Positions 11,311-63,445 of a stretch of DNA of 64,000 nucleotides are shown piece by piece. A model generated the notes under the pieces. That model was not told where the DNA came from. It saw nothing but the letters and a program-made list of their open reading frames with translations, and ran no database searches. The stretch's first letter is position 1, and each line of letters opens with the position of its first letter. Made by a program: the position numbers and the translations under genes. Source of the stretch: Beroe forskalii (lineage: Eukaryota; Ctenophora; Nuda; Beroida; Beroidae). The DNA lies in contig WFMF01000005.1 of NCBI GenBank assembly GCA_011033025.1, positions 372,001 through 436,000 of the forward strand. Direction: 5' to 3'.

Positions 11311-11312
11311 CG

Positions 11313-11853
11313 CCTGTAGGCGTCCCATGTCCTCATCTCCTTGTCCATACCCCGGATCTCACCTGTTTTCGCCCCAGGCCCTCATCTCCTTGTCCATGCC
11401 CCGGATCTCACCTGTAGACGTCCCAGGCCCTCATCTCCTTGTCCATGCCCCGGATCTCACCTGTAGACGTCCCAGGCCCTCATCTCCTTGTCCATGCCCC
11501 AGATCTCACCTGTAGACGTCCCATGCCCTCATCTCCTTGTCCATGCCCCGGATCTCACCTGTAGACGTCCCAGGCCCTCATCTCCTTGTCCATGCCCCGG
11601 ATCTCACCTGTAGACGTCCCAGGCCCTCATCTCCTTTTCCATGCTCCGGATCTCACCTGTAGACGTCCCAGGCCCTCATCTCCTTGTCCATGCCCCGGAT
11701 CTCACCTGTAGACGTCCCAGGCCCTCATCTCCTTGTCCATGCCCCGGATCTCACCTGTAGACATCCCATGCTCTCATCTCCTTGTCCATGCCCCGGATCT
11801 CACCTGTAGACGTCCCAGGCCCTCATCTCCTTGTCCATGCCCCGGATCTCACC
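11313..11853 (-). repeat. 49-bp tandem array copying the exon 3 end and its splice donor
   Basis: About eleven near-identical 49-bp units run directly out of the 3' end of dynein exon 3. On the coding strand each unit repeats GGCATGGACAAGGAGATGAG, GGCCTGGGACGTCTACAG and then gtgagatccg. Every unit therefore carries the last 40 or so exon bases plus a functional-looking GTGAG donor. Since 49 is not a multiple of three, use of a more distant donor would normally shift the frame. Confidence 0.9.
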
Positions 11854-12013
11854 TGTAGACGTCCCAGGCCCTCATCTCCTTGTCCATGCCCCGGATCTCC
11901 TTGACGAACTTCTTACACTCGACCTCCATACTCTCCACGTCAATTGCTATCCAGAGAGTGGTCTTCCAGTCGTCGAAACAACTCGTAACCAGTTCCGTCA
12001 TGTCCCAACACGT
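11853..12013 (-). CDS. DNAH9/11/17-like: Dynein exon 3 (lower): linker
   Basis: The exon reads CWDMTELVTSCFDDWKTTLW, then DVESMEVECKKFVKEIRGMD and KEMRAWDVYS, matching the N-terminal linker of outer-arm dyneins. The acceptor is ttcag. The first donor, TACAG-gtgagat, is set at 11853, where the unique exon meets the tandem array. This choice joins exon 4 in phase. Confidence 0.88.
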
Positions 12014-30226: not shown

Positions 30227-30227
30227 A

Positions 30228-33976: not shown

Positions 33977-33999
33977 GCACACCTATGCAGGCTTAGGAA

Positions 34000-38156: not shown

Positions 38157-38274
38157 CTGAAGGAGAAATTGTGAAAAGTGGTGGAACAATCATATCGAAT
38201 CTGAAGCCATTACTACACCTCTCTCAGACTCATTTGCCACCAATGTAAATTGTGAATTAAAAGTAGCTGAATAC

Positions 38275-38729
38275 CTTGGGCGTAAGGCACTGAGTTGAGG
38301 GAGACTTGGCTATCTTCCTCTTATTCTTCCTGGGAGCACCCCCAGCCCCACTTCCAGTTCTCATGGCTCTCAGCCTTTCCTCCTCCTTCACTCTCCGTCC
38401 CTCCTCCGGGTCGTCAAACTCAAAGACCGCCATGGCACTGTTCGTCTTGATCTGGTTGGTGTCCACCTTGAGCTTGGGAATGTTGGGCTTGTTGAGGGGT
38501 CCGCCCGGGGGCAGGGAGAAGAGTTTGTTTGAGAGTTTGTCGGCAGGGTCCCCGGGCCAGGAGTAGGTGTCTGTCAAGAACTCGTCAGTGCTCTTCTCTA
38601 GGATGTCAGGGTCGAAGAGATCGAGTATTTTCTCAGGGGAGGTCGGGTGGGAGGAGGAGAAACTGTCACAGTAGTCGTCTAGTCGCTGACTGCTACTTCG
38701 CACGCAGTGCTGCGAGTCTGACTGGTAAT
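38275..38729 (-). CDS. Exon d of the ataxin-7-like gene
   Basis: 151 codons, hydrophilic and acidic-then-basic: HCVRSSSQRLDDYCDSFSSS, FDPDILEKSTDEFLTDTYSW, AVFEFDDPEEGRRVKEEERL and APRKNKRKIAKSPSTQCL. The last looks like a nuclear localisation signal. Acceptor cccctcag, donor AAG-gtattcag. I recognise no catalytic domain. A second, truncated copy lies at 60804-60859. It is called part of the ataxin-7-like gene only because it follows exons a-c on the same strand. Confidence 0.7.
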
Positions 38730-39359
38730 CTGAGGGGGGAAGCTGGTGAGAACTGTTCTACTGTACGGTGATTAGAAAACAATGTAATTTGTAAAGAAAA
38801 TACTATATCATCAACATGAAACTTATAAATAGAACTGACCATTCCAAATAATTGGCCAATGTTGAAGATACACTAATTGGTTAATAAGATGTGGATTATG
38901 CTATGATTAATGATGGCTACCCAGTGTTGAAGACATTGCTGTTTCACTGACTAAATCCTCCGGGGACGACTTTATCTCGCTGAAGAGAGATTTAGGCGTC
39001 ATTAAATGGTTATTTCACTTCCTTCCACCCACCCTCAAGAACTCCCTAACAATATATAATTCCCTAACACCCTGCATTGTTTGAATGCTCTAATGTTAGA
39101 GTTCCCCCTATTACCCTGAAATCAGAATCCTACTATTAGAACGCTCCATTGTAATTATTCCCATATTTACCTGAAATCAGAACTTTACCATATGGAAGTT
39201 TTTTGTTCGTACATATTCTAAGTATTCAGTGTTAAATGGAATGCAGAATGAAAATTTTTGTTTCATTCTGATTTTTTTTCAATCGTTCTCAAGAAAAGTT
39301 TACACACGAATTCCACAACATCACACAATGGCACTAATATCAGCAAAATAAGGCGCTAC
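38730..39359. other. Intron c/d, copy A
   Basis: Matches 60860-61233 except for about 255 bp (about 39033-39288) that are missing there. The missing block is bounded by CTCAAGAA direct repeats, so it was probably lost by repeat-mediated deletion in copy C. Confidence 0.65.
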
Positions 39360-39473
39360 CTTGTACATCTGTGAGTTTCGCGGGAGGGAAACAGAGCGTT
39401 AAGAGCTGCCCTCAGGTTATCATTGGTCCTGGTGAAGACCAGCTGACCAGATCCAAAACTCCGCGCTCCCAAC
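39360..39473 (-). CDS. Exon c, copy A, of the ataxin-7-like gene
   Basis: Reads LGARSFGSGQLVFTRTNDNL, then RAALNALFPSRETHRCT. The acceptor gaatgtag joins exon b in phase (P-LGARS). The 3' border is uncertain: CAAG-gtagcg is the better-looking donor, but AGAT-gtacaagg gives an open join to exon d. Copies B (45216-45325) and C (61234-61347) are close matches. Confidence 0.6.
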
Positions 39474-40098
39474 CTACATTCCTGAGTGTGAAAGAGCGGT
39501 TTAGTGAAAGTATCAAATGGATTACTACTTCAATGAATTATGAGATTCGCTTCACCAAAAATTGTACCGGTTGCCTTGTCGCATCGTGATATGCAATTAA
39601 CGGCTTGAGAGTGCAGGGGTATATAAGGTGATGTACTGATATTATGACATATCATGCGACGAAGCAACCTGCAGAATTCAAATGAGGAAAGTTAATACCT
39701 TACTTCCGATCAAGTTTTGTACATTATGACATAGCAGTAGTTCCTTGAGCCCTTCCTTTGATAGTTCCTCCTAATTAAAGTATTAAGTAGAATGTGGAAA
39801 TATGCTTACCCCTAGAGGACGAGGTCGCTGATGTTGATACATCAAACCATTCCGATGTTCTGAGGTAAATGGGTATCATAATGACATAATCATAAATCAA
39901 AAGTGATCTCATGAGTGTCTGGATATTTAAATGCTATAGATCATTATATTTAACGTATTATGTATCAAACAGGCAAGAGTGAAGATTACACATAATGCAT
40001 GAACATTGAACATGACGCCACAAACAGTGATTGAGTCACATACTTGTGACTTTACCACCTTACCTCTCGTCACCTCCGCGCTGAAAATAATTGCTCAG
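39474..40098. other. Intron b/c, copy A, up to the foldback insertion
   Basis: Shared almost base for base with 45326-45950 and 61348-62008. Ends in ATTGCTCAG, where the foldback element begins. Confidence 0.7.
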
Positions 40099-40939
40099 GG
40101 CTGCACCCTGCAACGGCTTGAAGCAACATATTGACCGGTTCAGTGGTGTAGTTTTAGCCATCCCAAGTCCAAATCCGACGAGACCTATTTTTGTTAGGTG
40201 GTGGAACATGGCGCAATTGCGCCATTTAGGCGCCATGGCGCCAGAAATACTAACTTTTGATAGGAAGGTCGTAGAGACTTCTACTTGGGCTCAAACGAAG
40301 CGCAATGGCCATGTTTATATACGACTTGTTAATAAACATATGCCCTAAAATGCTCACAAACCGAGTTATGGGCCAAAACATGTTTTTAGCCCATGCGCGG
40401 GCTTGAAGTTGGTGATTCTTCATAATTTAGGCCACAAAAGTCGTAGGGACTCCGTTCATAGCTCAAAAGAATCGCAATGGTCATGTTTATATACGACTTG
40501 TTAATAAACATATGCTCTAAACCCTTTACTTTTCGAGTTATGAGGCAAAAGCCGTTTTATGGGGGATGCGCAAGGACCAAAATGTCATATATAATGGTCC
40601 AAGCGCACCAACCAAAAACGGCTTTTCATTTGATTTTTATGCACGGTTTATACTTTGGCAAAGTTTTACCACTGGAACATTACCAAGATTAGCCTCCATT
40701 AGCACCAATTAGCCTCCATGGAGGCTGAATGGAGGGTAATGGAGGCTGAGTGGAGGCTAATTTTAAAAATTAGCCTCCATGGAGGCTAATGGTTGCATAA
40801 GGCTAATTTTTGAAAAACAGCCTTTACTATGGAGGATAATTTAAGTTCAGCCTCCACTTACCTCGACTGAAGAATTAGCCTCCATTAGCCTCCACGGAAA
40901 CTGAATAAGTCATTTTTTGGGATTCTATGCTTCTATGAT

Positions 40940-41990
40940 TCTATGCTTCACTCAGCCTCCACTAGGCTCCATCCAGTCTCCAATAGGCTCCACTCAGCCT
41001 CCACTAGGCCCCACATAGCCTCCACTAGGCTCCAATTAGCCTCCACTAGGCTACACACAGCCTCCACTAGGCTCCAGACAGCCTCCACTAGGCTCCAGAC
41101 AGCGTCCATTAGGCTCCACTCAGCCTCCACTCAGCCTCCACTTGGCTCCACTCAGCATCCGCTAGTCTCCACTAGGCTCCAGAGAGCCTCCACTAGGCTC
41201 CACACAGCCTCAAATAGGCTACACACAGCCTCCACTAGGCTCCTCTCAGCCTCGACTAGCCTCCACTCAGCCTCCACCTGGCTCCACTCAGCCTCCGCTA
41301 GTCTCCACTAGGCTCCAGACAGCCTCCACTAGGCTCCACACAGCCTCCAATAGGCTCCACACAGCCTCCACTAGGCCCAGCCTCCACTAGGCCACTAGGC
41401 TCCACACAGCCTCCACAGGCTCCAGACAGCCTCCACTAGGCTCACTCAGCCTCCACTCAGCAGCCTCCACTAGGCTCCACAGCCTCAGCCTCCACTAGGC
41501 TCACACAGCCACTCAACTAGCCTCCACTCCAGCCTCCACTAGCCTCCACTAGGCTCCACTAGCCGCTCCCAGACAGCCTCCACTAGGCTCCAGACAGCTT
41601 CCACAAGGCTCCAAACAGCCTCCACTAGGCTCCACACAGCCATCAATAGGCTCCACACAGCCTCCACTAGGCTCCACTCAGCCTCAACTAGGCTCCACAA
41701 AGCCTCCAATAGGCCTCACTAGCCTACACTAGGCTCCAGACAGCCTCCACTAGGCTCCAGACCTCCACTAGGCTCACTCAGCCACCACTAGGCTCCAGAC
41801 AGCCTCCACTAGGCTCCAGACAGCCTCCACTAGTCTCCACTCAGCCACCACTAGGCACCACTCAGCCTCCACTAGGCTCCACTCAGCCTCCAATAGGCTC
41901 CACTCAGCCTCCACTAGCCTCCAATAGGCTCCACTCAGCCTCCACTAGGTTCCATTCAGCCTCCACTAGGCCTCCACAGTGGAGTCTCCA
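40940..41990 (+). repeat. 21-bp minisatellite, left arm of copy 1
   Basis: Units of 21 bp made of two similar 10-11-bp halves (CCTCCACTAGG and CTCCACTCAG). With a 7-codon period, frames read LHSASTR-like repeats, so the long open frames (for example 40943-41311) are not genes. Confidence 0.9.
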
Positions 41991-43560
41991 CTGGAGGCTG
42001 TGAGTGGGAGGCTGAGTGGAGCTCCACTGTAGAGGCTGGGCTGAGGGAGGCTGATAGGCTGAGTTTAGGCTCAGTGGAGGCTGAGTGGAGGCTGGAGGAG
42101 CCAAGGAGGCTGAGCCGTAGAGGCTGAGTGGAGCTGAGTGAAGTCCAGTGGAGGCTGAGTGGAGACAGCCTCCAGTAGGAGGCTCCTGAGGGAGCCTAGG
42201 TGGAGCTCCAGTGGAGGCTGTTTGGGGGCTAGGAGGCTGAGTGGAGGCTCCAGTGCTGAGTGGAGCCTGAGGCTGAGGCTCCAGGCTTGGTAGAGGCTGT
42301 GTGGAGGCTCCAGGCTGAGGGAGCCAAGCTGAGTGGAGCCTTGGCTGAGTTGAGGCCACTTTAGAGGGAGGCTGTGTGAGGCTAGTGGAGGCTGAGTGTG
42401 GAGGCTGGAGGAGGGTAGTGGAGGCTAGTGGAGGCTGTGTGGAGGCCTAGTGGAGGCTTGTGGGGCTGAGTGGAGGCTGTGTGGAGGCTAGTGGAGGCTG
42501 AGGAGCCTAGTGGAGGCTTCTTTAGGCTGGTGGAGGCTGTGAGCCTAGTGGAGGCTGAGTGGAGGCTGGCTAGTGGAGGCTGAGTGGAGCTTAGTGGAGG
42601 CTGAGTGGAGATAGTTGAGGCTAGTAGAGGCTCAGTGGAGGCTAGTGGAGGCTAGTGGAGGCTATGTGGATCCTAGTGGAGGCTGAGTGGAGGCTAAATG
42701 GAGCCTAGTGGGGGCTGAGTGGAGCTTAGTGGAGGCTGAGTGGAGGCTGTGTGGGGGCTAGTGGAGGATGAGTGGAGCCTAGTGGATGCTGAGTGGAGGC
42801 TGAGTAGAGGCTAGTTTAGGTTGAGTGGAGGCTGAGTGGAGCCTAGTGGAGGCTGAGTGGAGGGTAGCTGAGGCTTTTTGGAGGCTAGTGGAGGCTGACT
42901 GGAGCCTAGTGGAGGCTGAGTGAAGTCTAGTTGAGGCTGATTGGAGGCTAGTGGAGGCTGATTGGAGGCTAGTGGAGCCTAGTGGAGGCTGAGTGGAGCC
43001 TATTTGGAGGCTGAGTGGAGGCTAGTGGAGGCTGAGTGGAGGCTAGTGGAGGCTGAGTGGAGCCTTGTGGAGGCTGAGTGAAGTCTAGTGGAGGCTGATT
43101 GGAGGCTAGTGGAGCCCAGTGGAGGCTGAGTGGAGGCTGTGTGGGGGCTGAGTGGATCCTAGTGGATTCTGAGTGGAGGCTGAGTAGATGCTAGTTTAGG
43201 CTGAGTGGAGCCTAGTGGAGGCTGAGTGGAGGGTAGTTGAGGCTAGTAGAGGCTTTTTGGAGGCTAGTGGAGGCTGAGTGGAGCCTAGTGGAGGCTGAGT
43301 GAAGTCTAGTGGAGGCTGGATGGAGCCTAGTGGAGGCTAAGTAGAGCCTAGTGGAGGCTGAGTGGAGGCTGAGTGGAGCCTGTGTGGAAGCTAGTGACGG
43401 AGGCTTAGTGGAGGCTAGTGGCGGCTAGTGGAGGCTGAGTGGAGCCTAGTGGAGGCTGAGTGAAGTCTAATGGAGGCTGAGTGGAGGCTAGTAGAGGCTT
43501 TTTGGAGGCTAGTGGAGGCTGAGTGAAGCCTAGTGGAGGTTAAGTGGAGATTAGTTGGAG
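41991..43560 (-). repeat. 21-bp minisatellite, right arm of copy 1 (inverted)
   Basis: The same unit reads CTGAGTGGAGCCTAGTGGAGG on the plus strand. The right arm is longer than the left, so the hairpin is asymmetric. A unique segment (about 43560-43860), including TTTGTGCACATTTTGCCAGT, follows it. Confidence 0.9.
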
Positions 43561-44675
43561 CTGTCTGAAAGTTTGAATCTATATTTTTTCCCCAAATTTG
43601 TGCACATTTTGCCAGTTTCAGCAAGAATTTTTTTATAGAGGCTAGTTGATTTAGGCTCCACTTCGCCTCCACTCAGCCTCCACTCAGCCTTCAAATAGCT
43701 TACATGCCAGTAAGTAAGACGGTGAGACCTGATATCACTGACAGCAGTACCTCTAGGAAGCCAAGACATGCTAAGTTGCTATGCAGTTGAAGCTTTGGGG
43801 CATTGGCAGTCTGACAAAGATGTGTAGTCCACATCTATCATATTGATGGAAATTAGATTCTAGCATGAATGTTATGGACCAGAGCGCAGAAAAAAACGCC
43901 AAATCATGGCAGGGAATCAGCTATTTTACAACTTTTCAATATTTGAATGTAATTCAGTTCAAGACCAATTTATGCCACGTGGAGATACCACGTGGAGATT
44001 CCAGATTTGGGGAAAATCATCATCTGACTCTGAGTTCCAGATTTTCCCATCGTAAAGTATAAACCGTACATAAAAATCAAATGAAAAGCCGTTTTTGGTT
44101 GGTGCGCTTGGACCATTATATATGACATTTTGGTCCTTGCGCTCCCAAAAACGGCTTTTACTCATAACTTGAAAAGTAAAGGGTTTAGAGCATATGTTTA
44201 TTAACAAGTCGTATATAAACATGACCATTGCGATTCTTTTGAGCTATGAACGAAGTCCCTACGACTTTTGTGGCCTAAATTATGAAGAATCACCAACTTC
44301 AAGCCCGCGCATGGGCTAAAAACATGTTTTGGCCCATAACTCGGTTTGTGAGCATTTTAGGGCATATGTTTATTAACAAGTCGTATATAAACATGGCCAT
44401 TGCGCTTCGTTTGAGCCCAAGTAGAAGTCTCTACGACCTTCCTATCAAAGTTAGTATTTCTGGCGCCATGGCGCCTAAATGCGCAATTGCGCCATGTTCC
44501 ACCACCTAACAAAAATAGGTCTCGTCAGTTTGGACTTGGGATGGCTAAAACTACACCACTGAACCGGTCAATATGTTGCTTCAAGCCGTTGCAGGGTGCA
44601 GCACTTTTTAGAAATCAGACCACCAGGGGTCGAATAAAGGTCGGATAGAAGGTCAAATGAAAGGGGAATACTTAC

Positions 44676-44790
44676 GGCACTCGTTGGATGTACGCCTTGT
44701 CGTTCACGGAAGGAAGCTGACTTAGCAGCACTTTCAAGTCAATGTTCCCGGGTTTGAGCCCGGTGTATTAACTCTTGGGCTTTTCCCCTG
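44676..44790 (-). pseudogene. Exon b, copy A, degraded at its 5' part
   Basis: The donor end (GTGCC-gtaagtatt) and the codons for SVNEKAYIQRV match exon b of copies B and C. Upstream of about 44745 the sequence degenerates (CCCGGGTTTGAGCCCGGTGT) and cannot be read as the exon. It ends in the low-quality junction that follows. Confidence 0.6.
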
Positions 44791-45010
44791 AAAAATTTTC
44801 AAATTTTCCTTTACGGTGGGAAATGTTGGCAAAAAAAAAACCTATGTTTTTAAATCCAGGGAAACCCCCCAAAGCACTTCCTTCCCCCCACCCTAAAAAC
44901 CCCTTTAACAATATAAAATTTCCCCCAACTTTTTGCATTGTTTAAATTTTTTTCAATGTTAGATTTCCCCCTATTCCCCTAAAATGGAACCAAATTTTAG
45001 AATAAATTGT
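44780..45010. other. Garbled junction between copies A and B
   Basis: The sequence is rich in odd homopolymers (CCCCCCAAAG, AAAAAAAAAA, TTTCCCCC) yet can still be lined up loosely with about 39000-39150. This is the pattern of an uncorrected long-read consensus, not of evolution, and marks a probable artificial join. Confidence 0.6.
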
Positions 45011-45215
45011 AATTTTTTCCCCATATTTACCTGAAATCAGAACTTTACCATATGAAGTTTTTGTTCGTACATATTCTAAGTATTCAGTGTTAAAATGGAA
45101 TGCCCAGAATGAAAATTTTATTTCATTCTGATTTTTTTCAATCGTTCTCAAGAAAAGTTTACACACGAATTCCACAACATCACAATGGCACTAATATCAG
45201 CAAAATAAGGCTTAC

Positions 45216-45325
45216 CTTGTACATCTGTGGGTTTCGCGGGAGGAAACAGAGCGTTCAGAGCAGCCCTCAAGTTATCATTCCTGGTGAATGCCAGCTGACC
45301 AGACCCAAAACTCCATGCACCCAAC
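45216..45325 (-). CDS. Exon c, copy B
   Basis: Copy of 39360-39473 with a few indels. Here the 3' border is CAAG-gtaagcc, a strong donor. Codons for FGSGQLAFTRNDNLRAALNA and LFPPAK are visible. Confidence 0.6.
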
Positions 45326-46864
45326 CTACATTCTAGTGTGAAAGAGCGGTTTGGTGAAAGTATCAAATGGACTACTTCAATGAATTATGAGATTCTTCAC
45401 CAAAATTGTACCGAAGTTGCCCTTGTCGCATCATTGATATGCAATTAACGGCCGAGTGCAGGGGTATAGGTGATGTACTGATATTATGACATATCATGCG
45501 ACGAAGCAACCTGCAAAATTCAAATGAGGAAAGTTAATACCTTACTTCCGATCAAGTTTTGTACATTATGACATAGCAGTAGTTCCTTGAGCCCTTCCTT
45601 TGATAGTTCCTCCCTAATTAAAGTATTAAATAGAATGTGAAATATGCTTACCCTAGAGGACGAGGTCGCTGATGTTGATACATCAAACCGTTCCGATGTT
45701 CTGAGGTAAATGGGTATCATAATGACATAATCATAAATCAAAAGTGATCTCATGAGTGTCTGGATATTTAAATGCTATAGATCATTATATTTAACGTATT
45801 ATGTATCAAACAGGCAAGAGTGAAGATTACACATAATGCATGAACATTGAACATGACGCCACAAACAGTGATTGAGTCACATACTTGTGACTTTACCACC
45901 TTACCTCTCGTCACCTCCGCGCTGAAAATAATTGCTCAGTTAAGATGACGTAGTCTAGTCAGTTAAGGGCTGCACCCTGCAACGGCTTGAAGCAACATAT
46001 TGACCGGTTCAGTGGTGTAGTTTTAGCCATCCCAAGTCCAAATCCGACGAGACCTATTTTGTTAGGTGGTGGAACATGGCGCAATTGCGCCATTTAGCGT
46101 TATGGCGCCAGAAATACTAACTTTGATAGGAAGATCGTAGAGACTTCTACTTGGGCTCAAACGAAGCGCAATGGCCATGTTTATATACGACTTGTTAATA
46201 AACATGCCTAAAATGCTCACAAACCGAGTTATGGGCCAAAACATGTTTTTGTATGCGCGGGCTTGAAGTTAGTGATTCTTCATAATTTAGGCCACAAAAG
46301 TCGTAGGGACTCCGTTCATAGCTCAAAGAATCGCAATGGTCATGTTTATCTACGACTTGTTAATAAACATATGCTCTAAACCCTTTACTTTTCGAGTTAT
46401 GAGGCAAAAGCCGTTTTATGGGGATGTGCAAGGACCAAAATGTCATATAATGGTCCAAGCGCACCAACCAAAAACAGGTTTTCATTTGATTTTATGCACG
46501 GTTTATACTTTGGCAAAAGTTTTACCACTGGAACATTACCAAGATTAGCCTCCATTAGCACCAAGTAGCCTCCATGGAGGCTGAATGGAGGGTAATGGAG
46601 GCTGAGTGGAGGCTAATTTTAAAAATTAGCCTCCATGGAGGCTAATGGTTGCATAAGGCTAATTTTTGAAAAACAGCCTTTAATATGGAGGATAATTTGC
46701 CTCCACTAGCATCCATTAGTCTCCATTCAGCCTCAACGCAAACTTCATGGAGGCTGAAATTTAAGTTCAGCCTCCACTTACCTCGACTGAAGAATTAGCC
46801 TCCATTAGCCCCTCCTGAAACTGAATAAGTCATTTTTGGGATTCTATGCTTCTATGATTCTATG

Positions 46865-47875
46865 CTTCACTCCAGCTCCAGTCTCAATAGGCTCCACTCA
46901 GCCTCCACTAGGCCCCACATAGCCTCCACTAGGCTCCAATTAGCCTCCACTAGGCTACACACAGCCTCCACTAGGCTCAGACAGCCTCCACTAGGCTCAG
47001 ACAGCGTCCGTCTCACTCAGCCTCCACTAGCCTCCACTCAGCCTCCACTTGGCTCCACTCAGCATCCGCTAGTCTCCACTAGGCTCCAGAGCCTCCACTA
47101 GGCACTCCACACAGCCTCAAATAGGCTACAGCCTCCACTAAAACCCTCCTCTCAGCTCGACAGCCTCCCTCAGCCTCCACCTGGCTCCACTCAGCCTCCG
47201 CTAAGTCACTAGGCTCCAAACAGCCTCCACGAATCCCACAGCCTCAACCAAATCACACAGCCTCACTAGGCTCCACTCAGCTTCAACTAGCCTCCACACA
47301 GCCTCCACTAGCCTCCAATAGGCACCACACAGCCTCCACTAGGCTCCACTCAGCTTCAACTAGCCTCCACACAGCCTCCACTAGCCTACACTAGGCTCCA
47401 GACAGCCTCCACTAGGCTCCACTCAGCCTCAACTAGCCTCCATACAGCCTCCACTAGCCTACACTAGGCTCCAGACAGCCTCCACTAGGCTCCAGACAGC
47501 TTCCACAAGGCTCCAAACAGCCTCCACTAGGCTCCACACAGCCATCAATAGGCTCCACACAGCCTCCACTAGGCTCCACTCAGCCTCAACTAGGCCCCAC
47601 AAAGCCTCCAATAGGCCTCCACTAGCCTACACTAGGCTCCAGACAGCCTCCACTAGGCTCCAGACAGCCTCCACTAGTCTCCACTCAGCCACCACTAGGC
47701 TCCAGACAGCCTCCACTACTCCACTAGGCTCCAGACAGCCTCCACTAGTCTCCACTCAGCCACCACTAGGCACCATTCAGCCTCCACTAGGCTCCACTCA
47801 GCCTCCACTAGCCTCCAATAGGCTCTAGACAGCCTCCACTAGGTTCCATTCAGCCTCCACTAGGTACCACACAGT
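46865..47875 (+). repeat. 21-bp minisatellite, left arm of copy 2
   Basis: Same unit as 40940-41990, about 48 units. The turn-around is near 47875 (CACACAGTGGAGTC). Confidence 0.9.
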
Positions 47876-49590
47876 GGAGTCTAGTGGAGGCTGTGTGAAG
47901 GAGTGAAGGTGGAGGCAGTGGAGCGCCAGAGGCTGAGTGGACTGTGGAGGCTGATGAGAGGCTGTTTTTAGGGCTCTGTGAGGCTGTGGAGGCTGTGTGG
48001 AGCTGGAGAGTGGAGCCAAGTGGAGGCTGAGTTGGAGGCTACTGGAGGCTGAGTGGAGGGAGTAGTTGAGGCTTGTAGAGGCTGAGTGGAGCCCAGTGGA
48101 GGCTGAGTGAAAGTCTAGTGGAGGCTGAGTGGTTTTGTAGAGGCTGGTGGAGGGAGGCTGATAAAAGGCTAGTTTAGGCTCAGTGGAGGCTGGAGTGGAG
48201 GCTGAGGTGAGGTGAGCTGAGGTTGAGGCTACTGGAGGCTGAGTGGAGGGTAGTTGAGGCTTGTAGAGGCTGAGTGGAGCCCAGTGGAGGCTGTGTGGAG
48301 GCTGAGTGGAGCCAAGTGGATGCTGAGTTGAGGCTACTGGAGGCTGAGTGGAGCCAAGTGGATGCTGAGTTGAGGCTACTGGAGGCTGAGTGGAGGTTAT
48401 GTGGAGCCTAGTGAAGGCTGAGTGGAGCCTAGTGGAGGCTAAGTGGAGCCTAGTGGAGGCTGAGTGGAGGCTGTGTGGGGGCTAGTGGAGGCTGAGTGGA
48501 GCCTAGTGGATGCTACTTTAGGCTGTGTGGAGCCTAGTGGAGGCTACTTTAGGCTGAGTGGAGGCTGTGTGGGGCCTAGTGGAGGCTGAGTGGAGCTTAG
48601 TGGAGGATAGTTGAGGCTAGTAGAGGCTCAGTGGAGGCTAGTGGAGGCTGAGTGAAGCCTAGTGGAGGCTGAGTGGAGGCTAGTGGAGGCTATGTGGATC
48701 CTAGTGGAGGCTGAGTGGAGGCTAAATGGAGCCTAGTGGGGGCTGAGTGGAGCTTAGTGGAGGCTGCTTGAAGGCTGTGTGGGGGCTAGTGGAGGATGAG
48801 TGGAGCCTAGTGGATGCTGAGTGGAGGCTGAGTAGAGGCTAGTTTAGGTTGAGTGGAGGCTGAGTGGAGCCTAGTGGAGGCTGAGTGGAGGGTAGCTGAG
48901 GCTTTTTGGAGGCTAGTGGAGGCTGACTGGAGCCTAGTGGAGGCTGAGTGAAGTCTAGTGGAGGCTGATTGGAGGCTAGTGGAGGCAAGTGGAGGCCAGT
49001 GGAGGCTAGTGGAGGCAAGTGGAGGCAAGTGGAGGCTGAGTGGAGGCTAGTGAGTAGTGGAGGCTAGTGGAGGCTGAGTGGAGCCTTGTGGAGGCTGAGT
49101 GAAGTCTAGTGGAGGCTGATTGGAGGCTAGTGGAGCCCAGTGGAGGCTGTGTGGGGGCTAGTGGAGGCTGAGTGGATCCTAGTGGATGCTGAGTGGAGGC
49201 TGAGTAGATGCTAGTTTAGGCTGAGTGGAGGCTGAGTGGAGCCTAGTGGAGGCTGAGTGGAGGTAGTGCCAGAGGCTAGTAGAGGCTTTTGGAGGCTAGT
49301 GGAGGCTGAGTGGAGCCTAGTGGAGGCTGAGTGAAGTCTAGTGGAGGCTGGATGGAGCCTAGTGGAGGCTAAGTAGAGCCTAGTGGAGGCTGAGTGGAGT
49401 CTGAGTGGAGCCTGTGTGGAAGCTAGTGACGGAGGCTTAGTGGAGGCTAGTGGCGGCTAGTGGAGGCTGAGTGGAGCCTAGTGGAGGCTGAGTGAGGGGT
49501 CTAATGGAGGCTGAGAGTGGAGGCTAGTAGAGGCTTTTGGAGGCTAGTGGAGGCTGAGTGAAGCCTAGTGGAGGTTAAGTGGAGATAAGT
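47876..49590 (-). repeat. 21-bp minisatellite, right arm of copy 2 (inverted)
   Basis: Roughly 80 inverted units, with local block duplications, for example GGATGCTGAGTTGAGGCTAC, at about 48310 and 48365. Confidence 0.9.
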
Positions 49591-50796
49591 TGGAGCTGTC
49601 TGAAAGTTTGAATCTATATTTTTCCCCCAAATTTGTGCACATTTTGCCAGTTTCAGCAAGGCTAGTTGATTTAGGCTCCACTTCGCCTCCACTCAGCCTC
49701 CAATCAGCCTTCAAATAGCTTACATGCCAGTAAGTAAGACGGTGAGACCTGATATAACTGACAGCAGTACCTCTAGGAAGCCAAGACATGCTAAGTTGCT
49801 ATGCAGTTGAAGCTTATTGGGGCATTGGCAGCCTGACAGAGATGTGTGGTCCACATCTATCATATTGATGGAAATTAGATTCTAGCATGAATGTTATGGA
49901 CCAGAGCGCAGAAAAAACGCCAAATCATGGCAGAGAATCAGCTATTTTACAACTTTTAAATATTTGAATGTAATTCAGTTCAAGACCAATTTATGCCACG
50001 TGGAGATACCACGTGGAGATTCCAGATTTGGGGAAAATCATCATCTGACTCTGAGTTCCAGATTTTCCTATCGTAAAGTATAAACCGTACATAAAAATCA
50101 AATGAAAACCCGTTTTTGGTTGGTGCGCTTGGACCATTATAGATGACATTTTGGTCCTTGCGCGTCCCCCAAAAAACGGCTTTTGCTTCATAACTTGAAA
50201 AGTAAAGGGTTTAGAGCATATGTTTATTAACAAGTCGTATATAAACATGACCATTGCGATTCTTTTGAGCTATGAACGAAGTCCCTACGGCTTTTGTGGC
50301 CTAAATTATGAAGAATCACCAACTTCAAGCCCGCGCATGGGCTAAAAACATGTTTTGGCCCATAACTCGGTTTGTGAGCATTTTAGGGCATGTTTATTAA
50401 CAAGTCGTATATAAACATGGCCATTGCGCTTCGTTTGAGCCCAAGTAGAAGTCTCTACGATCTTCCTATCAAAAGTTAGTATTTCTGGCGCCATGGCGCC
50501 TAAATGGCGCAATTGCGCCATGTTCCACCACCTAACAAAAATAGGTCTCGTCGGATTTGGACTTGGGATGGCTAAAACTACACCACTGAACCGGTCAATA
50601 TGTTGCTTCAAGCCGTTGCAGGGTGCAGCACTTTTTTTTGCCTTAACTGACTAGACTAACGTGCAACACAACGCAATTTAAATCTCAAGTCACGAATCCT
50701 GCATGACTGTTATGGTAAGAGTTACGGCATGAGTTCAGACCATAGGGGTCGAATAAAAGGTCGGATAGAAGGTCGAATGAAAGGGGGAATACTTAC

Positions 50797-50914
50797 GGCA
50801 CTCGTTGGATGTACGCCTTTTCGTTCACGGAAGGAAGCTGACTTAGCAGCACTTTCAAGTCGAATGTTCCGGCTTTCGTAGCAGTACTAACCTTGGGCTC
50901 CGGTGACTTCAAAT
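50797..50914 (-). CDS. Exon b, copy B, of the ataxin-7-like gene
   Basis: A 118-bp exon reading LKSPEPK, ATKAGTFDLKVLLSQLPSVN and EKAYIQRV. Acceptor accgtcag, donor GTGCC-gtaagtat. Its first two bases complete an Asp codon from exon a. Confidence 0.7.
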
Positions 50915-51645
50915 CTGACGGTGAAGTGTTGTAAGGAAATCTATGATTCATCCAGTGGAACCCAAATGTTCAAAATCAGTTGTGGATGTAGCATTTTACA
51001 TTGGGTTTTCGCTTTGACCCAAATCTATGGAATGGGAAGTTCAAGATATGAACTGACGAGATAAAACATGAACAAGAGCGGTATCAGTCGAGTGGTGTTC
51101 CAAGTATGTCCTACGCGCGCAGCGACGCCGCGCAACAAACTTAGCGCAAAACGATCATATTTCACTGAGTCCATGTATTTGGCGCGCTACGCAAACACAA
51201 CATAAACAGTGCCCGTCCATGCGAAATGGGGATTATGGGTCGAATTATCTGTCCCAGTAGTAATCAAATTGTAGCCGCTTTCTCCATTTATGCGATAGCT
51301 TTAAATAACCATTCAACCGGTTATCGTATTAACGTCAAAAAGTTTCAGTTGAGGTAGGAAATTTGATATAAAAACGTGGTTATGACCATAACAATCCTAA
51401 AGAAGTAAGAAATAGTTAAATCAGAGTTGAAGATGCGTCATGCGTGTAGTTACCGATGAAAAGTCATTAGGATATACCACGGCTTTGCATGGGTATCAGT
51501 TGTTTTAATACCCAATATAATAACCTTAAAATAGAATCACGGCCATTGCCTACGCTTGTAGACGCTTTATTGATTGTATTATTATTAAAATCTTCTACTT
51601 TACCTCCAACCAGTGACAGTGATGTGAATTTTCTAACTAATTTAC
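50915..51645. other. Intron a/b, copy B
   Basis: Near-identical to 62262-62995. Contains GCGCGCAGCGACGCCGCGCA near 51117; no gene seen. Confidence 0.6.
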
Positions 51646-52089
51646 CTTTGACAGTGGTGGTTTTCCTCTTGGTAGCTTTGGTGTGTCTGGGAGGGAAGGG
51701 TAAAGGGAAGGGGGTGAGGGGGCGGGGATGCCACACTGAATGTCAGGGATTTCATGATGTTCTTATCACTCTCCTTCTCCTCTACGATCGCTTTCTGAGA
51801 CGCTGCTTTGCTCTTCGGTTGCTTCTTTGCTGCCCCCTTTTTAGGCTGTTTCTTGTTCGACTTAACCACCCCTGATGTGGAGCCCTTGTTCTGTGTTTTG
51901 GATTTGGCTGTCTTGCAGAAACCTTCCTCTTCCCTGATGATCTGCTCGATGACCTTGGGTCGAGGCGGGTGTTTGAAGAGCTTGGAAGGGGGCGTGGCAT
52001 GACGGGATGTTGTCACTGAGGACGTGACACCACTGCTGCTGCAGCCCTCCGTCTTGACACCACCTGAGGGGTTGGTGTCATCACAGCTG
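51646..52089 (-). CDS. Exon a, copy B (one-base losses)
   Basis: Same exon as 62996-63445. It has KLFKHPPRPKVIEQIIREEE and the Lys-rich KSNKKQPKKG block. Relative to copy C it has lost one base near 52070 and bases in G/C runs near 51700-51720 and 51825, so it is not open from end to end. The donor CAAAG-gtaaatt is kept. Confidence 0.65.
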
Positions 52090-52665
52090 CTGTGCTCCGT
52101 TAATTAAATGTGATGTAATCTGTAAATATACGGTGTTCCTTAGTTCATTGTAATATGAAACCCTTCGCAATATGATAAAATTGAAACTTGAAAGGAACAC
52201 CTCACGACTTACTCATACTGACTAGAATTAAAATTTGGTAATTGGTAAATTATAGTCAACATTTATTCAATATTTCAGCATCTGATTCAATATTTTCATG
52301 TGAGTTATGAAAAGCTTATACCGCAGTGAAAATATATTCATACTTTTAATAAGATTCCTAAAAACGTAAAATCACACGACAATTTAAATAACGCAAGAAA
52401 TTTGAAATATTAAATGCCTATAATTACCTGAATTTTCAATGAACTTTGGTACGAAAGCACCGGCTAGTTTTTGTTTCTGGATCATAAATTTCGTTTTTAC
52501 ATAATTTACCAAGAGTTTCGAACTTCGTAGAAAATCAAAGGATATCAAATACTTATTACTCAACAACTCACATATTTTCGGCAAGTGTCTTCAATCATTA
52601 TACAGAAACGATGGTTGAATTAAGAAATTGTACGCTATATTCTTCTATGACTGTATTTTGAAGGT
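52090..52665. other. Intron between the zinc-finger array and exon a, copy B
   Basis: AT-rich and nearly identical to 63446-64000. It meets the first satellite unit at about 52670. Confidence 0.6.
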
Positions 52666-52666
52666 T

Positions 52667-55600
52667 GAGCTTACCATGGACTTTGGAGACATGGTGAGCC
52701 AGGAAGGCTGGTTTGAGGAGGGCATTGCACATGTAACACTTACCATGGACTTTAAAGACATGGTGAGCCAGGAAGGCTGGTTTGAGGAGGGCATTGCACA
52801 TGTAACACTTACCATGGACTTTGGAGACATGGTGGGCCAGGAAGGCTGGTTTGAGGAGGGCATTGCACATGTAACACTTACCATGGACTTTGGAGACATG
52901 GTGAGCCAGGAAGGCTGGTTTGAGGAGGGCATTGCACATGTACCACTTACCATGAGCTTTGGAGACATGGTGAGCCAGGAAGGCTGGTTTGAGGAGGGCA
53001 TTGCACATGCAACACTTACCATGGACTTTGGAGACATGGTGGGCCAGGAAGGCTGGTTTGAGGAGGGCATTGCACATGTAACACTTACCATGGACTTTGG
53101 AGACATGGTGGGCCAGGAAGGCTGGTTTGAGGAGGGCATTGCACATGTGACACTTACCATGGACTTTGGAGACATGGTGGGCCAGGAAGGCTGGTTTGAG
53201 GAGGGCATTGCACATGTGACACTTACCATGGACTTTGGAGACATGGTGGGCCAGGAAGGCTGGTTTGAGGAGGGCATTGCACATGTGACACTTACCATGG
53301 ACTTTGGAGACATGGTGGGCCAGGAAGGCTGGTTTGAGGAGGGCATTGCACATGTGACACTTACCATGGACTTTGGAGACATGGTGGGCCAGGAAGGCTG
53401 GTTTGAGGAGGGCATTGCACATGTGACACTTACCATGGACTTTGGAGACATGGTGGGCCAGGAAGGCTGGTTTGAGGAGGGCATTGCACATGTACCACCA
53501 TGGACTTTGGAGACATGGTGGGCCAGGAAGGCTGGTTTGAGGAGGGCATTGCACATGTAACACTTACCATGGACTTTGGAGACATGGTGGGCCAGGAAGG
53601 CTGGTTTGAGGAGGGCATTGCACATGTACCACTTACCATGGACTTTGGAGACATGGTGGGCCAGGAAGGCTGGTTTGGTTTGAGAGGGCATTGCACATGT
53701 AACACTTACCATGGACTTTGGAGACATGGTGGGCCAGGAAGGCTGGTTTGAGGAGGGCATTGCACATGTAACACTTACCATGGACTTTGGAGACATGGTG
53801 GGCCAGGAAGGCTGGTTTGAGGAGGGCATTGCACATGTAACACCCTACCATGGACTTTGGAGACATGGTGGGCCAGGAAGGCTGGTTTGAGGAGGGCATT
53901 GCACATGTAACACTTACCATGGACTTTGGAGACATGGTGGGCCAGGAAGGCTGGTTTGAGGAGGGCATTGCACATGTAACACTTACCATGGACTTTGGAG
54001 ACATGGTGGGCCAGGAAGGCTGGTTTGAGGAGGGCATTGCATTGCACATAACACCCTGGGAGCCATGGACTTTGGAGACATGGTGGGCCAGGAAGGCTGG
54101 TTTGAGGAGGGCATTGCACATGTAACACTTACCATGGACTTTGGAGACATGGTGAGCCAGGAAGGCTGGTTTGAGGAGGGCATTGCACATGTAACACTTA
54201 CCATGGACTTTGGAGACATGGTGGGCCAGGAAGGCTGGTTTGAGGAGGGCATTGCACATGTGACACTTACCATGGACTTTGGAGACATGGTGGGCCAGGA
54301 AGGCTGGTTTGAGGAGGGCATTGCACATGTAACACTTACCATGGACTTTGGAGACATGGTGGGCCAGGAAGGCTGGTTTGAGGGAGGGCATTGCATGGAC
54401 ACTTACGGACTTTGGAGACATGGTGGGCCAGGAAGGCTGGTTTGAGGAGGGCATTGCAACACTTACCATGGACTTTGGAGACATGAGCTTTGGAGACATG
54501 GTGGGCCAGGAAGGCTGGTTTGAGGAGGGCATTGCACATGTAACACTTACCATGGACTTTGGAGACATGGTGGGCCAGGAAGGCTGGTTTGAGGAGGGCA
54601 TTGCACATGTAACACTTACCATGGACTTTGGAGACATGGTGGGCCAGGAAGGCTGGTTTGAGGAGGCATTGCACATGCAACACTTACCATGGACTTTGGA
54701 GACATGGTGAGCCAGGAAGGCTGGTTTGAGGAGGGCATTGCACATGTAACACTTACCATGGACTTTGGAGACATGGTGGGCCAGGAAGGCTGGTTTGAGG
54801 GAGGGCATTGCATGTAACACTTACCATGGACTTTGGAGACATGGTGGGCCAGGAAGGCTGGTTTGAGGAGGGCATTGCACATGTAACACTTACCATGGAC
54901 TTTGGAGACATGGTGGGCCAGGAAGGCTGGTTTGAGGAGGGCATTGCACATGTGACACTTACCATGGACTTTGGAGACATGGTGGGCCAGGAAGGCTGGT
55001 TTGAGGAGGGCATTGCACATGTAACACTTACCATGGACTTTGGAGACATGGTGGGCCAGGAAGGCTGGTTTGAGGAGGGCATTGCACATGTAACACTTAC
55101 CATGGACTTTGGAGACATGGTGAGCCAGGAAGGCTGGTTTGAGGAGGGCATTGCACATGTAACACTTAACATGAGCTTTGGAGACATGGTGAGCCAGGAA
55201 GGCTGGTTTGAGGAGGGCATGTAACACTTACCATGGACTTTGGAGACATGGTGGGCCAGGAAGGCTGGTTTGAGGAGGGCATTGCACATGCAACACTTAC
55301 CATGGACTTTGGAGACATGGTGAGCCAGGAAGGCTGGTTTGAGGAGGGCATTGCACATGTAACACTTACCATGGACTTTGGAGACATGGTGGTGGGCCAG
55401 GAAGGCTGGTTTGAGGAGGGCATTGCACATGTACCACTTACCATGGACTTTGGAGACATGGTGGGCCAGGAAGGCTGGTTTGAGGAGGGCATTGCACATG
55501 TAACACTTACCATGGACTTTGGAGACATGGTGGGCCAGGAAGGCTGGTTTGAGGAGGGCATTGCACATGTAACACTTACCATGGACTTTGGAGACATGGT

Positions 55601-58600
55601 GAGCCAGGAAGGCTGGTTTGAGGAGGGCATTGCACATGTAACACTTACCATGGACTTTGGAGACATGGTGGGCCAGGAAGGCTGGTTTGAGGAGGGCATT
55701 GCACATGTAACACTTACCATGGACTTTGGAGACATGGTGGGCCAGAAGGAGGGCATTGCACATGTACCACTTACCATGGACTTTGGAGACATGGTGAGCC
55801 AGGAAGGCTGGTTTGAGGAGGGCATTGCACATGTAACACTTACCATGGACTTTGGAGACATGGTGGGCCAGGAAGGCTGGTTTGAGGAGGGCATTGCACA
55901 TGTAACACTTACCATGGACTTTGGAGACATGGTGGGCCAGGAAGGCTGGTTTGAGGAGGGCATTGCACATGTAACACTTACCATGGACTTTGGAGACATG
56001 GTGAGCCAGGATGGTGGTTTGAGGGCATTGCACATGTAACACTTACCATGAGCTTTGGAGACATGGTGGGCGCTGGTTTGAGGAGGGCATTGCACATGGA
56101 CTTTGGGACTTTGGAGACATGGTGGGCCAGGAAGGCTGGTTTGAGGAGGGCATTGCACATGTACCACTTACCATGGACTTTGGAGACATGGTGGGCCAGG
56201 AAGGCTGGTTTGAGGAGGCATTGCACATGTGAGCTTTGGAGACATGGTGAGCCAGGAAGGCTGGTTTGAGGAGTGCATTGCACATACCATGACACTTACC
56301 ATGGACTTTGGAGACATGGTGAGCCAGGAAGGCTGGTTTGAGGAGGGCATTGCACATGTAACACTTACCATGGACTTTGGAGACATGGTGGGCCAGGAAG
56401 GCTGGTTTGAGGAGGGCATTGCACATGTAACACTTACCATGGACTTTGGAGACATGGTGGGCCAGGAAGGCTGGTTTGAGGAGGGCATTGCACATGTAAC
56501 ACTTACCATGGACTTTGGAGACATGGTGGGCCAGGAAGGCTGGTTTGAGGAGGGCATTGCACATGTAACACTTACCATGGACTTTGGAGACATGGTGGGC
56601 CAGGAAGGCTGGTTTGAGGAGGGCATTGCACATGTACCACTTACCATGGACTTTGGAGACATGGTGGGCCAGGAAGGCTGGTTTGAGGAGGGCATTGCAC
56701 ATGTAACACTTACCATGGACTTTGGAGACATGGTGGGCCAGGAAGGCTGGTTTGAGGAGGGCATTGCACATGTAACACTTACCATGAGCTTTGGAGACAT
56801 GGTGAGCCAGGAAGGCTGGTTTGAGGAGTGCATTGCACATACCATGACACTTACCATGGACTTTGGAGACATGGTGAGCCAGGAAGGCTGGTTTGAGGAG
56901 GGCATTGCACATGTAACACTTACCATGGACTTTGGAGACATGGTGGGCCAGGAAGGCTGGTTTGAGGAGGGCATTGCACATGTAACACTTACCATGGACT
57001 TTGGAGACATGGTGGGCCAGGAAGGCTGGTTTGAGGAGGGCATTGCACATGTAACACTTACCATGGACTTTGGAGACATGGTGGGCCAGGAAGGCTAGTT
57101 TGAGGAGGGCATTGCACATGTAACACTTACCATGGACTTTGGAGACATGGTGAGCCAGGAAGGCTGGTTTGAGGAGGGCATTGCACATGTACCACTTACC
57201 ATGGACTTTGGAGACATGGTGGGCCAGGAAGGCTGGTTTTAGGAGGGCATTGCACATGCAACACTTACCATGGACTTTGGAGACATGGTGAGCCAGGAAG
57301 GCTGGTTTGAGGAGGGCATTGCACATGTAACACCATGGACTTTGGAGACATGGTGAGCCAGGAAGGCCTGGCTTGAGGAGGGCATTGCACATGTGACACT
57401 TACCATGGACTTTGGAGACATGGTGGGCCAGGAAGGCTGGTTTGAGGAGGGCATTGCACCTGTAACACTTACCATGGACTTTGGAGACATGGTGGGCCAG
57501 GAAGGCTGGTTTGAGGAGGGCATTGCACATGTAACACTTACCATGGACTTTGGAGACATGGTGGGCCAGGAAGGCTGGTTTGAGGAGGGCATTGCACATG
57601 TAACACTTACCATGAGCTTTGGAGACATGGTGAGCCAGGAAGGCTGGTTTGAGGAGGGCATTGCACATGCAACACTTACCATGGACTTTGGAGACATGGT
57701 GGGCCAGGAAGGCTGGTTTGAGGAGGGCATTGCACATGTACCACTTACCATGGACTTTGGAGACATGGTGAGCCAGGAAGGCTGGTTTGAGGAGGGCATT
57801 GCACATGTAACACTTACCATGGACTTTGGAGCATGGTGGGCCAGGAAGGCTGGTTTGAGGAGGGCATTGCACATGTGACACTTACCATGGACTTTGGAGA
57901 CATGGTGGGCCAGGAAGGCTGGTTTGAGGAGGGCATTGCACCTGTAACACCATGGACTTTGGACATGGTGGGCTACATGGTTTGAGGAGGGCATTGCATG
58001 TAACACTTACCATGGACTTTGGAGACATGGTGGGCCAGGAAGGCTGGTTTGAGGAGGGCATTGCACATGTAACACTTACCATGAGCTTTGGAGACATGGT
58101 GAGCCAGGGAAGGCTGGTTTGAGGAGGGCATTGCACATGTAACACCACCATGGACTTTGGAGACATGGTGGGCCAGGAAGGCTGGTTTGAGGAGGGCATT
58201 GCACATGTAACACTTACCATGGACTTTGGAGACATGGTGGGCCAGGAAGGCTGGTTTGAGGAGGGCATTGCACATGTACCACTTACCATGGACTTTGGAG
58301 ACATGGTGGGCCAGGAAGGCTGGTTTGAGGAGGGCATTGCACATGTGACACTTACCATGGACTTTGGAGACATGGTGGGCCAGGAAGGCTGGTTTGAGGA
58401 GGGCATTGCACATGTAACACTTACCATGGACTTTGGAGACATGGTGAGCTAGGAAGGCGCTGGTTTGAGGAGGGCATTGCACATGTAACACTTACCATGG
58501 ACTTTGGAGGTGGGCCAGGAAGGCTGGTTGAGGAGGGCATTGCACATGTAACACTTACCATGGACTTTGGACACAGGAGACATGGTTTGAGGAGGGCATT

Positions 58601-59278
58601 GCACATGTAACACTTACCATGGACTTTGAGCGGTGGGCCAGAAGGCTATTTGAGGAGGGCATTGCATGTGACACTTACCATGGACTTTGGAGACATGGTG
58701 GGCCAGGAAGGCTGGTTTGAGGAGGGCATTGCACATGTAACACTTACCATGGACTTTGGAGACATGGTGGGCCAGGAAGGCTGGTTTGAGGAGGGCATTG
58801 CACATGTACCACTTACCATGGACTTTGGAGACATGGTGGAGCCAGGAAGGCTGGTTTGAGGAGGGCATTGCACAACGAACTTTGGAGACATGGTGGGCCA
58901 GGAAGGCTGGTTTGAGGAGGGCATTGCACATGTAACACTTACCATGGACTTTGGAGACATGGTGAAGGCTGGTTTGAGGAGGGCATTGCACATGTGACAC
59001 TTACCATGGACTTTGGAGACATGGTGGGCCAGGAAGGCTGGTTTGAGGAGGGCATTGCACATGTAACACTTACCATGGACTTTGGAGACATGGTGGGCCA
59101 GGAAGGCTGGTTTGAGGAGGGCATTGCACATGTAACACTTACCATGGACTTTGGAGACATGGTGAGCCAGGAAGGCTGGTTTGAGGAGGGCATTGCACAT
59201 GCAACACTTACCATGGACTTTGGAGACATGGTGGGCCAGGAAGGCTGGTTTGAGGAGGGCATTGCACATGTGACACGA
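52667..59278 (-). repeat. 69-bp satellite copying a zinc-finger exon end and splice donor (~95 units)
   Basis: The unit on the coding strand is the last part of the finger exon, TGCAATGCCCTCCTCAAACC to AAAGTCCATG, then the donor gtaagtgttac. Units differ at a few fixed positions (GTAACAC, GTGACAC, GTACCAC, GCAACAC; GGACTTT or GAGCTTT). Because 69 is 23 codons, read-through gives YMCNALLKPAFLAHHVSKVH repeated, with Cys-x2-Cys and two His kept, and few stops in any frame. Higher-order structure exists: an eight-unit block of 555 bp is duplicated (variant CACATACCATGACAC near 56280 and 56835). Confidence 0.95.
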
Positions 59279-59325
59279 CACCACCAGCAGGTTGGAAACC
59301 GAGCCCGATCCGAACAGGAAGAGAT
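59212..59325 (-). CDS. ATXN7: Zinc-finger exon, ataxin-7-like (SAGA subunit candidate)
   Basis: Acceptor gattccaccag, then LFLFGSGSVSNLLVVSCHMC followed by NALLKPAFLAHHVSKVH and donor CATG-gtaagtgt. The arrangement FG...LVV-C-x2-C-x3-(V/L)KP-x-AF-x2-H-x4-H-G resembles the N-terminal finger of ataxin-7 (Sgf73), which anchors the deubiquitinase module in the SAGA histone acetyltransferase complex. Exon a has PPSKLFKHPPRP, similar to the PLSKLY-APPPPP that follows this finger in vertebrate ataxin-7. The SCA7 domain is not in the window. The join CATG + exon a of copy C is in phase. Similarity is short, so the name is provisional. Confidence 0.55.
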
Positions 59326-60803
59326 CTGGTGGAATCGTTAAGGAAAACACATCGTTACGAAATACTTGATTTGCACTAAAGTGAAAGTTTGGTGATAGTA
59401 TCGATTCATTGAAATATCGGATTATGGTAGTGGAATATGATAGCAAAACAACATAAACTGCATTATAATATCATCTGCTATACAAGATATTATTTATAGT
59501 TAATTTATTAATGGTTTGATCGTTAAAGGATCCTATACATTGCAGCTCTGTTATCTGATTTGAAAGGGAACGCCAAGTATAGTATGTTTTCTTGGTTCGT
59601 TTCTTGAGCAATCACATTCATAGTACATAATATAATAATTATGCAAACATACAGCAGGCTACGATGCAGTTAAGTGATACGTAAACACTTAAATAATATA
59701 CTTAGCGTGATCCATACAATTAATTACCGTTTGACTGCCAAATGTTTAAAAGTACGTCAATGTTTATCATATAGTGGCATTAGCGATCGTGAAACTACGA
59801 GCAGTGGCTTACGCACTTAATCTCAATACCTGCAACTATTAATAGCTATAGGACTTAGTGTTATGGGCAACTGAGTGCCGTAAAAACACCAATATCGATG
59901 TTATTCCTTCCTAAGGTAAACAAATAGCTACATCATTGACATAAGATAATTGATATGAGAAATGATATCTTATATTATATAATCTAACTTTTTGAGAAGT
60001 AAGAACACTGTCATAACATCAATAGAAAAACATTTCAACCTCTACTATTGAAAGAGGCACTTTTATTGAAAGAGCACAGGTTTAATTAAGGTCATTTTCC
60101 AATAATACAAATATTCCACGCCCAGGCATCGATTCAGGCTTTAATAATCTTTTTTAAACACGTGCATAAAAAAACACGACCTAATTTAGATTTTACACGA
60201 TAAATAATTCAAACGAAATAACCTTTGTTCTTGATAAGTTCAATTATTTAGATAATCATATACACATGTATACAGTCTCACTCTCTAAAAGTCTAAACCC
60301 TGATTATGTCTGTAATCCTCATGCCTTTTAAGTTGAGATTATCGCTCAAGTTATGACCAAAGCTTGGAATTTAGTCCCAACCAATCGTGACTGCATCATG
60401 ACTAGTTGTTGGTAGCACAAGGCTTGATGCATCGCATCAGTGGGTCTTCTGTCTTATCTCAATTATAATTTATTCTACGAGCGCGCGCAGAAAAAAGTGC
60501 ACGTGCAGATGAATTGCGGGCTGTTTTGATTTGGTTGCTCATAAATTTTGATCTGATAGGAATTTTCACATTTTTATGCGATAAAATTGAGTTGTAAGAA
60601 GTTATGGACCAACGGGCCCGCTAGTTGTCCCGTCATATCCTATGCAGATCCATTCAATGCTTTATAAAGCAAATTTGCATTCCGTGATACAACGCATTGG
60701 ACAGAAGAACACCGTTACGCTCTCTAGAACATCAGATTATGATATACTAATTCAACACGCTCTCCTACAGGCGACATTATTAAGAGCGCGCAATAAACCA
60801 ACT
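59326..60803. other. Non-coding stretch upstream of the finger exon
   Basis: AT-rich sequence without repeats or exons. It separates the finger exon from the truncated copy C of exon d, which should lie downstream of it in a normal gene. Confidence 0.5.
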
Positions 60804-62995: not shown

Positions 62996-63445
62996 CTTTG
63001 ACAGTGGTGGTTTTCCTCTTGGTAGCTTTGGTGTGTCTGGGAGGGGAAGGGTAAAGGGAAGGGGGTGAGGGGGGCGGGGATGCCACACTGAATGTCAGGG
63101 ATTTCATGATGTTCTTATCACTCTCCTTCTCCTCTACGATCGCTTTCTGAGACGCTGCTTTGCTCTTCGGTTGCTTCTTTTTGCTGCCCCCTTTTTTAGG
63201 CTGTTTCTTGTTCGACTTAACCACCCCTGATGTGGAGCCCTTGTTCTGTGTTTTGGATTTGGCTGTCTTGCAGAAACCTTCCTCTTCCCTGATGATCTGC
63301 TCGATGACCTTGGGTCGGGGCGGGTGTTTGAAGAGCTTGGAAGGGGGCGTGGCGTGACGGGATGTTGTCACCGAGGACGTGACACCACTGCTACTGCAGC
63401 CCTCCGTCTTGACACCACCTGCGGGGATTGGTGTCATTTCAGCTG
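62996..63445 (-). CDS. Exon a, copy C, intact
   Basis: About 150 codons open throughout: MTPIPAGGVKTEGCSSSGVT, ATPPSKLFKHPPRPKVIEQI, the basic run KSNKKQPKKGGSKKKQPKSK and PSPPRHTKATKRKTTTVK. The basic runs suggest a nuclear protein. Acceptor gcacag before CAGCTGAAATG, donor CAAAG-gtaaatt. It follows the finger exon in phase, so copy C is the better sequence of this exon. Confidence 0.7.

Follow-up and report, generated by a model that had tools for sequence, protein, structure and literature searches.

The zinc-finger exon and its array

The window is a stretch of 64,000 nucleotides from a contig of Beroe forskalii. A putative zinc-finger gene lies on its minus strand, and the end of one of its exons is repeated many times within the following intron. 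The features at this locus are:

59212..59325, minus strand: zinc-finger exon, 114 nt, DLFLFGSGSVSNLLVVSCHMCNALLKPAFLAHHVSKVH(G), read directly; C2H2 pattern by eye, identical in a second copy
52670..59275, minus strand: array of exon end plus donor, about 69 bp x 97 (Tandem Repeats Finder, wrap-around alignment)
52663..52675, minus strand: distal end of the array and start of the unique intron, GGTAAGCTCAACC (alignment of the two copies)
51737..52063, minus strand: exon a, the next exon, open frame GGVKTEGCSSSG..., in phase with the finger-exon donor; the 3' end at 51737 is guessed
50797..50914, minus strand: candidate further exon, LKSPEPK...YIQRV, donor GTAAGT, open frame in both copies

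The limits of the finger exon and exon a were read from the sequence by eye. The finger exon is bordered by the acceptor CCACCAG and the phase-1 donor CATG/GTAAG. The acceptor CCCCTCAG/GTGGTG lies directly before 52063 and is compatible in phase, and the predicted junction reads ...SKVHG/GVKTEG.... Exon a occurs at 2 places in the genome, both on the contig that carries the array.

The finger exon fits by eye LVVxCxxCxxxxKPxxFxxHxxxxHG, which we take to be the Ataxin-7 finger motif. It has no match in the PDB (E 10), Pfam or the protein collection. The SCA7 domain PF08313 has no match in the genome above the cut-off (the best is 19.6 bits, on another contig). A scan of the minus-strand strips 28001-39000, 50300-52100 and 59900-92000, which could miss a split domain, did not find it either. 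An Ataxin-7 identity of the gene is not established. The best match of exon a in the PDB has an E of 1.4, which is not meaningful, and its lack of a match among phages is uninformative. The candidate third exon has no family match. A single-sequence fold of the finger exon predicts one helix (pLDDT 75.6, pTM 0.35) and is also uninformative.

The array itself is real in the assembly. The initial annotation put it at about 95 tandem 69-bp units, and wrap-around alignment from 59275 to 52670 gives 97 when the exon's own 3' end is counted as unit 0. Tandem Repeats Finder, at period 69, reports 90.9 copies in 52670-58874 (91% matches, 4% indels) and 4.5 copies in 58964-59276. The unit joins the 3'-terminal 64 nt of the finger exon to GTAAG, the 5 nt with which the intron begins. 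That much of the claim that each unit holds the exon end and its donor stands, but the donor is not kept by all: GGTAAG is intact in 85/97 units in the wrap-around alignment, where 65 of the 97 are exactly 69 nt without an indel. There are 44 distinct unit sequences among the 97. A genome search with the unit gave at least 105 matches and, among the matches listed, all are on the array's own contig.

The last unit runs into GTAAGCTCAACC, unique intron sequence that is common to both copies of the locus. Since the sequence at this distal end is shared with copy 2, it is probably the ancestral donor. Unit variants recur along the copy-1 array, with offsets of 7, 23, 24 and 32 weakly favoured; 10, 2, 20 and 50 of 1000 permutations respectively reach the observed value, and 40 offsets were tested. 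This hints at duplication in blocks of about 8 units, and we do not lean on it.

The second copy of the locus

The gene sits in a block that is present twice, head to tail. Positions past the window's end are given on the same scale:

38672..60800, no strand: D, first copy of the block (alignment)
60803-70588: D', second copy, abutting D with no gap and no N
63089..63418, minus strand: exon a, copy 2, inside the window
64445-64558, minus strand: zinc-finger exon, copy 2, past the window's end
64026-64508, minus strand: exon-end array, copy 2, 7 units, all 69 nt, past the window's end

The copy-2 array has the same limits as the copy-1 array and carries GGTAAG in 7/7 units. The finger exon differs between the copies at 0/114 nt. 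In exon a 4/4 substitutions are synonymous, and there is a net indel of 3 nt. The flank at 59616-60800 has 65/1180 mismatches. Judged by this difference between exons and flank, both copies of the finger exon and of exon a appear to be under constraint, although the numbers are small. The frame of the candidate third exon (50914..50797) is preserved, but the copies differ there in four neighbouring bases, which alter two residues.

The block also carries elements with long inverted ends of about 560-610 bp. Two are in the window (39016-44609 and 44875-50636), with cores of a 21-bp or 42-bp satellite, and another is at 64616-69375 (L017). In the alignment one element of D has no counterpart in D', and the reverse is true of the one at 64616-69375. 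By their structure these are fold-back-like transposons.

The number of units, 97 against 7, is the main difference between the arrays, and the copies may be alleles or paralogues. The D/D' layout would be expected both of a true tandem duplication and of two haplotypes joined end to end. It is worth considering whether the long array is an assembly artefact, either mis-expanded or a product of such end-to-end haplotypes. The copies differ by 2.8% over 2.5 kb, which is allele-like for a heterozygous ctenophore; the excerpt of PMC8527503 gives the heterozygosity of Hormiphora as 3.2%. However, copy 2 has an array with the same limits, the copies abut at 60800/60803 without an N, and the units are not uniform as their 44 distinct forms show. 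We regard an artefact as unlikely, and it is partly compatible with the explanation we prefer below. If the copies are alleles, then the array has 7 units in one allele and 97 in the other.

Reading and splicing of the array

The initial annotation argued that the frame stays open over hundreds of codons, so that n retained units would add n extra fingers. Stop-free stretches in the copy-1 array do reach 612 codons. The frame that comes from the exon does not last that long: 7 nt are deleted in unit 4, where it is lost, and a stop follows about 209 codons further on. At units 0-3 the donor is intact and in phase, with no stop before it. The intact donors of units 4, 6, 7 and 8 fall out of phase, and those beyond them lie behind a stop. 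Copy 2 has TAA stops in units 1 and 4. Since its first extra unit carries TAA, a full protein would come from donor 0 only. One finger per retained unit could thus hold for at most the first few units of copy 1, and for none in copy 2.

A length-variable protein module was one of three options offered for the array. In the form that the frames allow, splicing from one or another of donors 0-3 would give the long-array copy a protein with anywhere from one to four zinc fingers, and a typical unit would add CYMCNALLKPAFLAHHVSKVHGK if read through. This does not make sense of copy 2, which permits donor 0 alone, nor of the 11 copy-1 units in which the first zinc ligand has become Trp. The rest of the unit is also without constraint. 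Past unit 0, the distinct substitutions are synonymous in 10/29 cases for copy 1 and 3/6 for copy 2, where 22% would be expected from every possible single change in the unit and 33% from transitions. Length has changed in 32/96 units of copy 1, and in only 9 of these 32 by a multiple of three. The comparison of synonymous and non-synonymous differences that had been proposed as a check gives no sign of coding constraint, and the substitutions and indels look neutral. We consider the module quite improbable. The frames and substitutions speak against a coding array, which we reject.

Copy-1 indels could partly be consensus error, a concern we raise because a repeat elsewhere in the genome (L060:8580-9100) looks degraded by eye. 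The argument from the frame would then be weaker in copy 1, but not in copy 2 or in a second array in the same window. That array is at the end of a dynein exon:

11853..12013, minus strand: dynein axonemal heavy chain exon, end amplified (PF08393, E 3.2e-9; PDB DNAH17 chain, E 1.6e-13)
11309..11899, minus strand: array of 49 bp x 12, each unit 44 nt of the dynein exon end plus GTGAG

Its spacing is exactly 49 bp in 11/11 intervals, and the last donor is GC. Reading beyond the first donor leads to TGA at once. From its frame this array cannot add to the protein, yet it shares the anatomy of the finger array, and a non-coding array of this kind is another argument against the protein module. 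The 23-codon period of the finger array looks incidental because the dynein exon has an array of the same design at 49 bp with an immediate TGA. Dynein heavy chain exons are also duplicated in part within the window (28792-30225 against 7181-8616); one second-copy exon is frame-broken and the next is identical as aligned.

The second option was a splice-donor decoy array, or a device for intron length, in which selection would maintain the many donors because they capture U1 snRNP or delay splicing. GGTAAG is indeed kept in 84/96 downstream units. The median over the unit's 64 hexamers is 88, so the donor hexamer ranks below it and has no extra conservation. Gaps are frequent at the donor hexamer, and the 7-unit copy does without most of the donors. 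We reject a decoy under selection as extremely improbable. On the sequence as it stands neither the fingers nor the donors of the array show any sign of selection.

This leaves neutral satellite growth inside a gene, the third option, which the evidence favours. Judged from these features the array is probably an intronic minisatellite of the 'mirage' type, produced by tandem duplication of an exon-intron boundary and spliced out from the exon-proximal donor. Counting against this are the two residues altered in the candidate third exon and, as given below, the small genome-wide excess of donor arrays and the 0/8 arrays with a donor in other sequence. In this scenario the 3' end of the finger exon was copied, together with the first 5 intron bases, in a short tandem duplication, a step that can be seen in the unit itself. 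The overlap at the duplication junction, by eye, is 1 nt at the finger exon and 3 nt at the dynein exon. Slippage or unequal exchange would then have raised one copy to about 97 units and the other to 7. The spliceosome most likely joins the donor of unit 0 to exon a, and the whole array would leave with the intron. Its units would then drift neutrally. Copy 1, but not copy 2, could occasionally yield an mRNA with 1-3 extra fingers.

Other arrays and known systems

Counting arrays of this kind across the genome by a broad donor pattern was tried and abandoned, as other minisatellites dominate the count. The pattern, three donor-like heptamers at spacings of 37-67 bp, matches the genome 7264 times and its reverse 5575 times (1.3x), which implies that minisatellites in general are common and the donor excess is small. 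By a simple text test 4/28 array rows in a 112-kb region contain a donor, all four of them belonging to the finger and dynein exons. The same test found a donor in 0/8 arrays (period >=15, Tandem Repeats Finder score >=100) from 40 kb elsewhere, which speaks against the weaker cases that follow.

The donor-pattern places among the matches listed fall into 7 arrays by our own grouping, and we inspected the flanks of 5/7. At C1:310597 an open exon leads into units of 30-36 bp that end in TCAG/GTGAGG, 18 of them exact. The best PDB match of this exon is TRIP12 (E 0.017, with no single stretch significant), and the stretch upstream of it has no match. It is a possible HECT-ligase exon with a donor array. 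The arrays at C1:1753545 and C1:1559307 adjoin open frames, by eye only. Pfam finds nothing in these three loci. At C1:1948147 and C1:2395517 the link to an exon is ambiguous. A 50-bp unit x 2.6 at L060:6262-6393 adjoins an open exon, again by eye.

Other repeats were seen in passing. At L060:1-4609 (C1:1943001-1947609) a 53-bp unit holding CACTTGCAG/GTTCAG is present in about 88 or more copies and is perhaps, from its sequence, an acceptor-type array. Its neighbours are a 30-bp donor-like array and a 97-99-bp array. At L060:8580-9100 the sequence next to an array decays by eye to homopolymer-rich text, like a poor consensus. At G000:C236:592172-592286 GTAAGTGTTACCATG occurs x3 at 50-bp spacing, perhaps another donor array.

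One can imagine a recurrent mutational process in this ctenophore, independent of amphioxus, that amplifies exon-intron boundaries into donor arrays, making introns longer and supplying material for new introns and variable finger number. We offer this tentatively and think it may well be wrong. Two clear cases in one window, together with the possible HECT-ligase exon, suggest that introns have grown, and perhaps arisen, repeatedly by this route in animals that are only very distantly related. With about 85 intact copies of a single donor behind one exon, the locus also offers a natural test of spliceosomal choice among identical 5' splice sites.

Coding zinc-finger minisatellites of the PRDM9 type consist of one open exon of 28-codon fingers. 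They share with the Beroe array a C2H2 finger as the tandem DNA unit. The Beroe unit differs in that it contains a donor, its frame is lost at unit 4 and its changes look neutral.

Human tandem repeats at exon-intron boundaries in segmental duplications are another minisatellite at the same kind of place. According to the portion of PMC2812944 used here they vary between recent paralogues, average 30-bp units x 4, and often go with repeat-keeping transcripts or new introns. The Beroe finger array is much larger, at 69 bp x 97. Literature on ctenophores and exon boundaries, mostly titles and abstracts, offered no array that we recognised as alike beyond the human cases and amphioxus.

It is amphioxus that contradicts the earlier statement that no described animal gene is built this way. 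In the sections of PMC3087553 at hand, amphioxus 'mirages' are minisatellite-like units across an exon-intron boundary, many with AG/GT signals, in Adh3 and the globins BflGb6 and BflGb9. Their units are 10-72 bp in Adh3 and about 150-160 bp in the globins, and length differs between haplotypes, with 6 and 3 units in those of BflGb6. Parts of PMC3902484 add troponin C and imperfect repeats in PGBD5, and both sources, as excerpted, report splicing that is regular and unaffected. Since 'mirages' share the anatomy, the novelty claim falls as worded. The finger unit likewise spans the boundary (64 nt + 5 nt, on predicted exon limits) and holds splice signals (GGTAAG in 85/97 and 7/7 units).

Amphioxus itself as the host is rejected by COX1. 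The gene on the mitochondrial contig (C1134) has 4 in-frame TGA codons; once these are translated as Trp, it matches the Beroe forskalii record in UniRef at 100% identity over 507 aa. Provided that this contig comes from the same animal as the rest, the assembly is of Beroe or a close relative. The differences from 'mirages', as those excerpts describe them, begin with this apparent ctenophore rather than cephalochordate host, although the clade is no part of the anatomy. The 69-bp unit here is frame-neutral and lies in a zinc finger, and splicing is predicted from frames, which favour unit 0. What is new, against those sources, is the host and the size, 97 units in one Beroe copy where one amphioxus globin has 6 and 3. 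An exon-boundary minisatellite of this size in an apparent ctenophore, with another clear case close by, remains worth attention.
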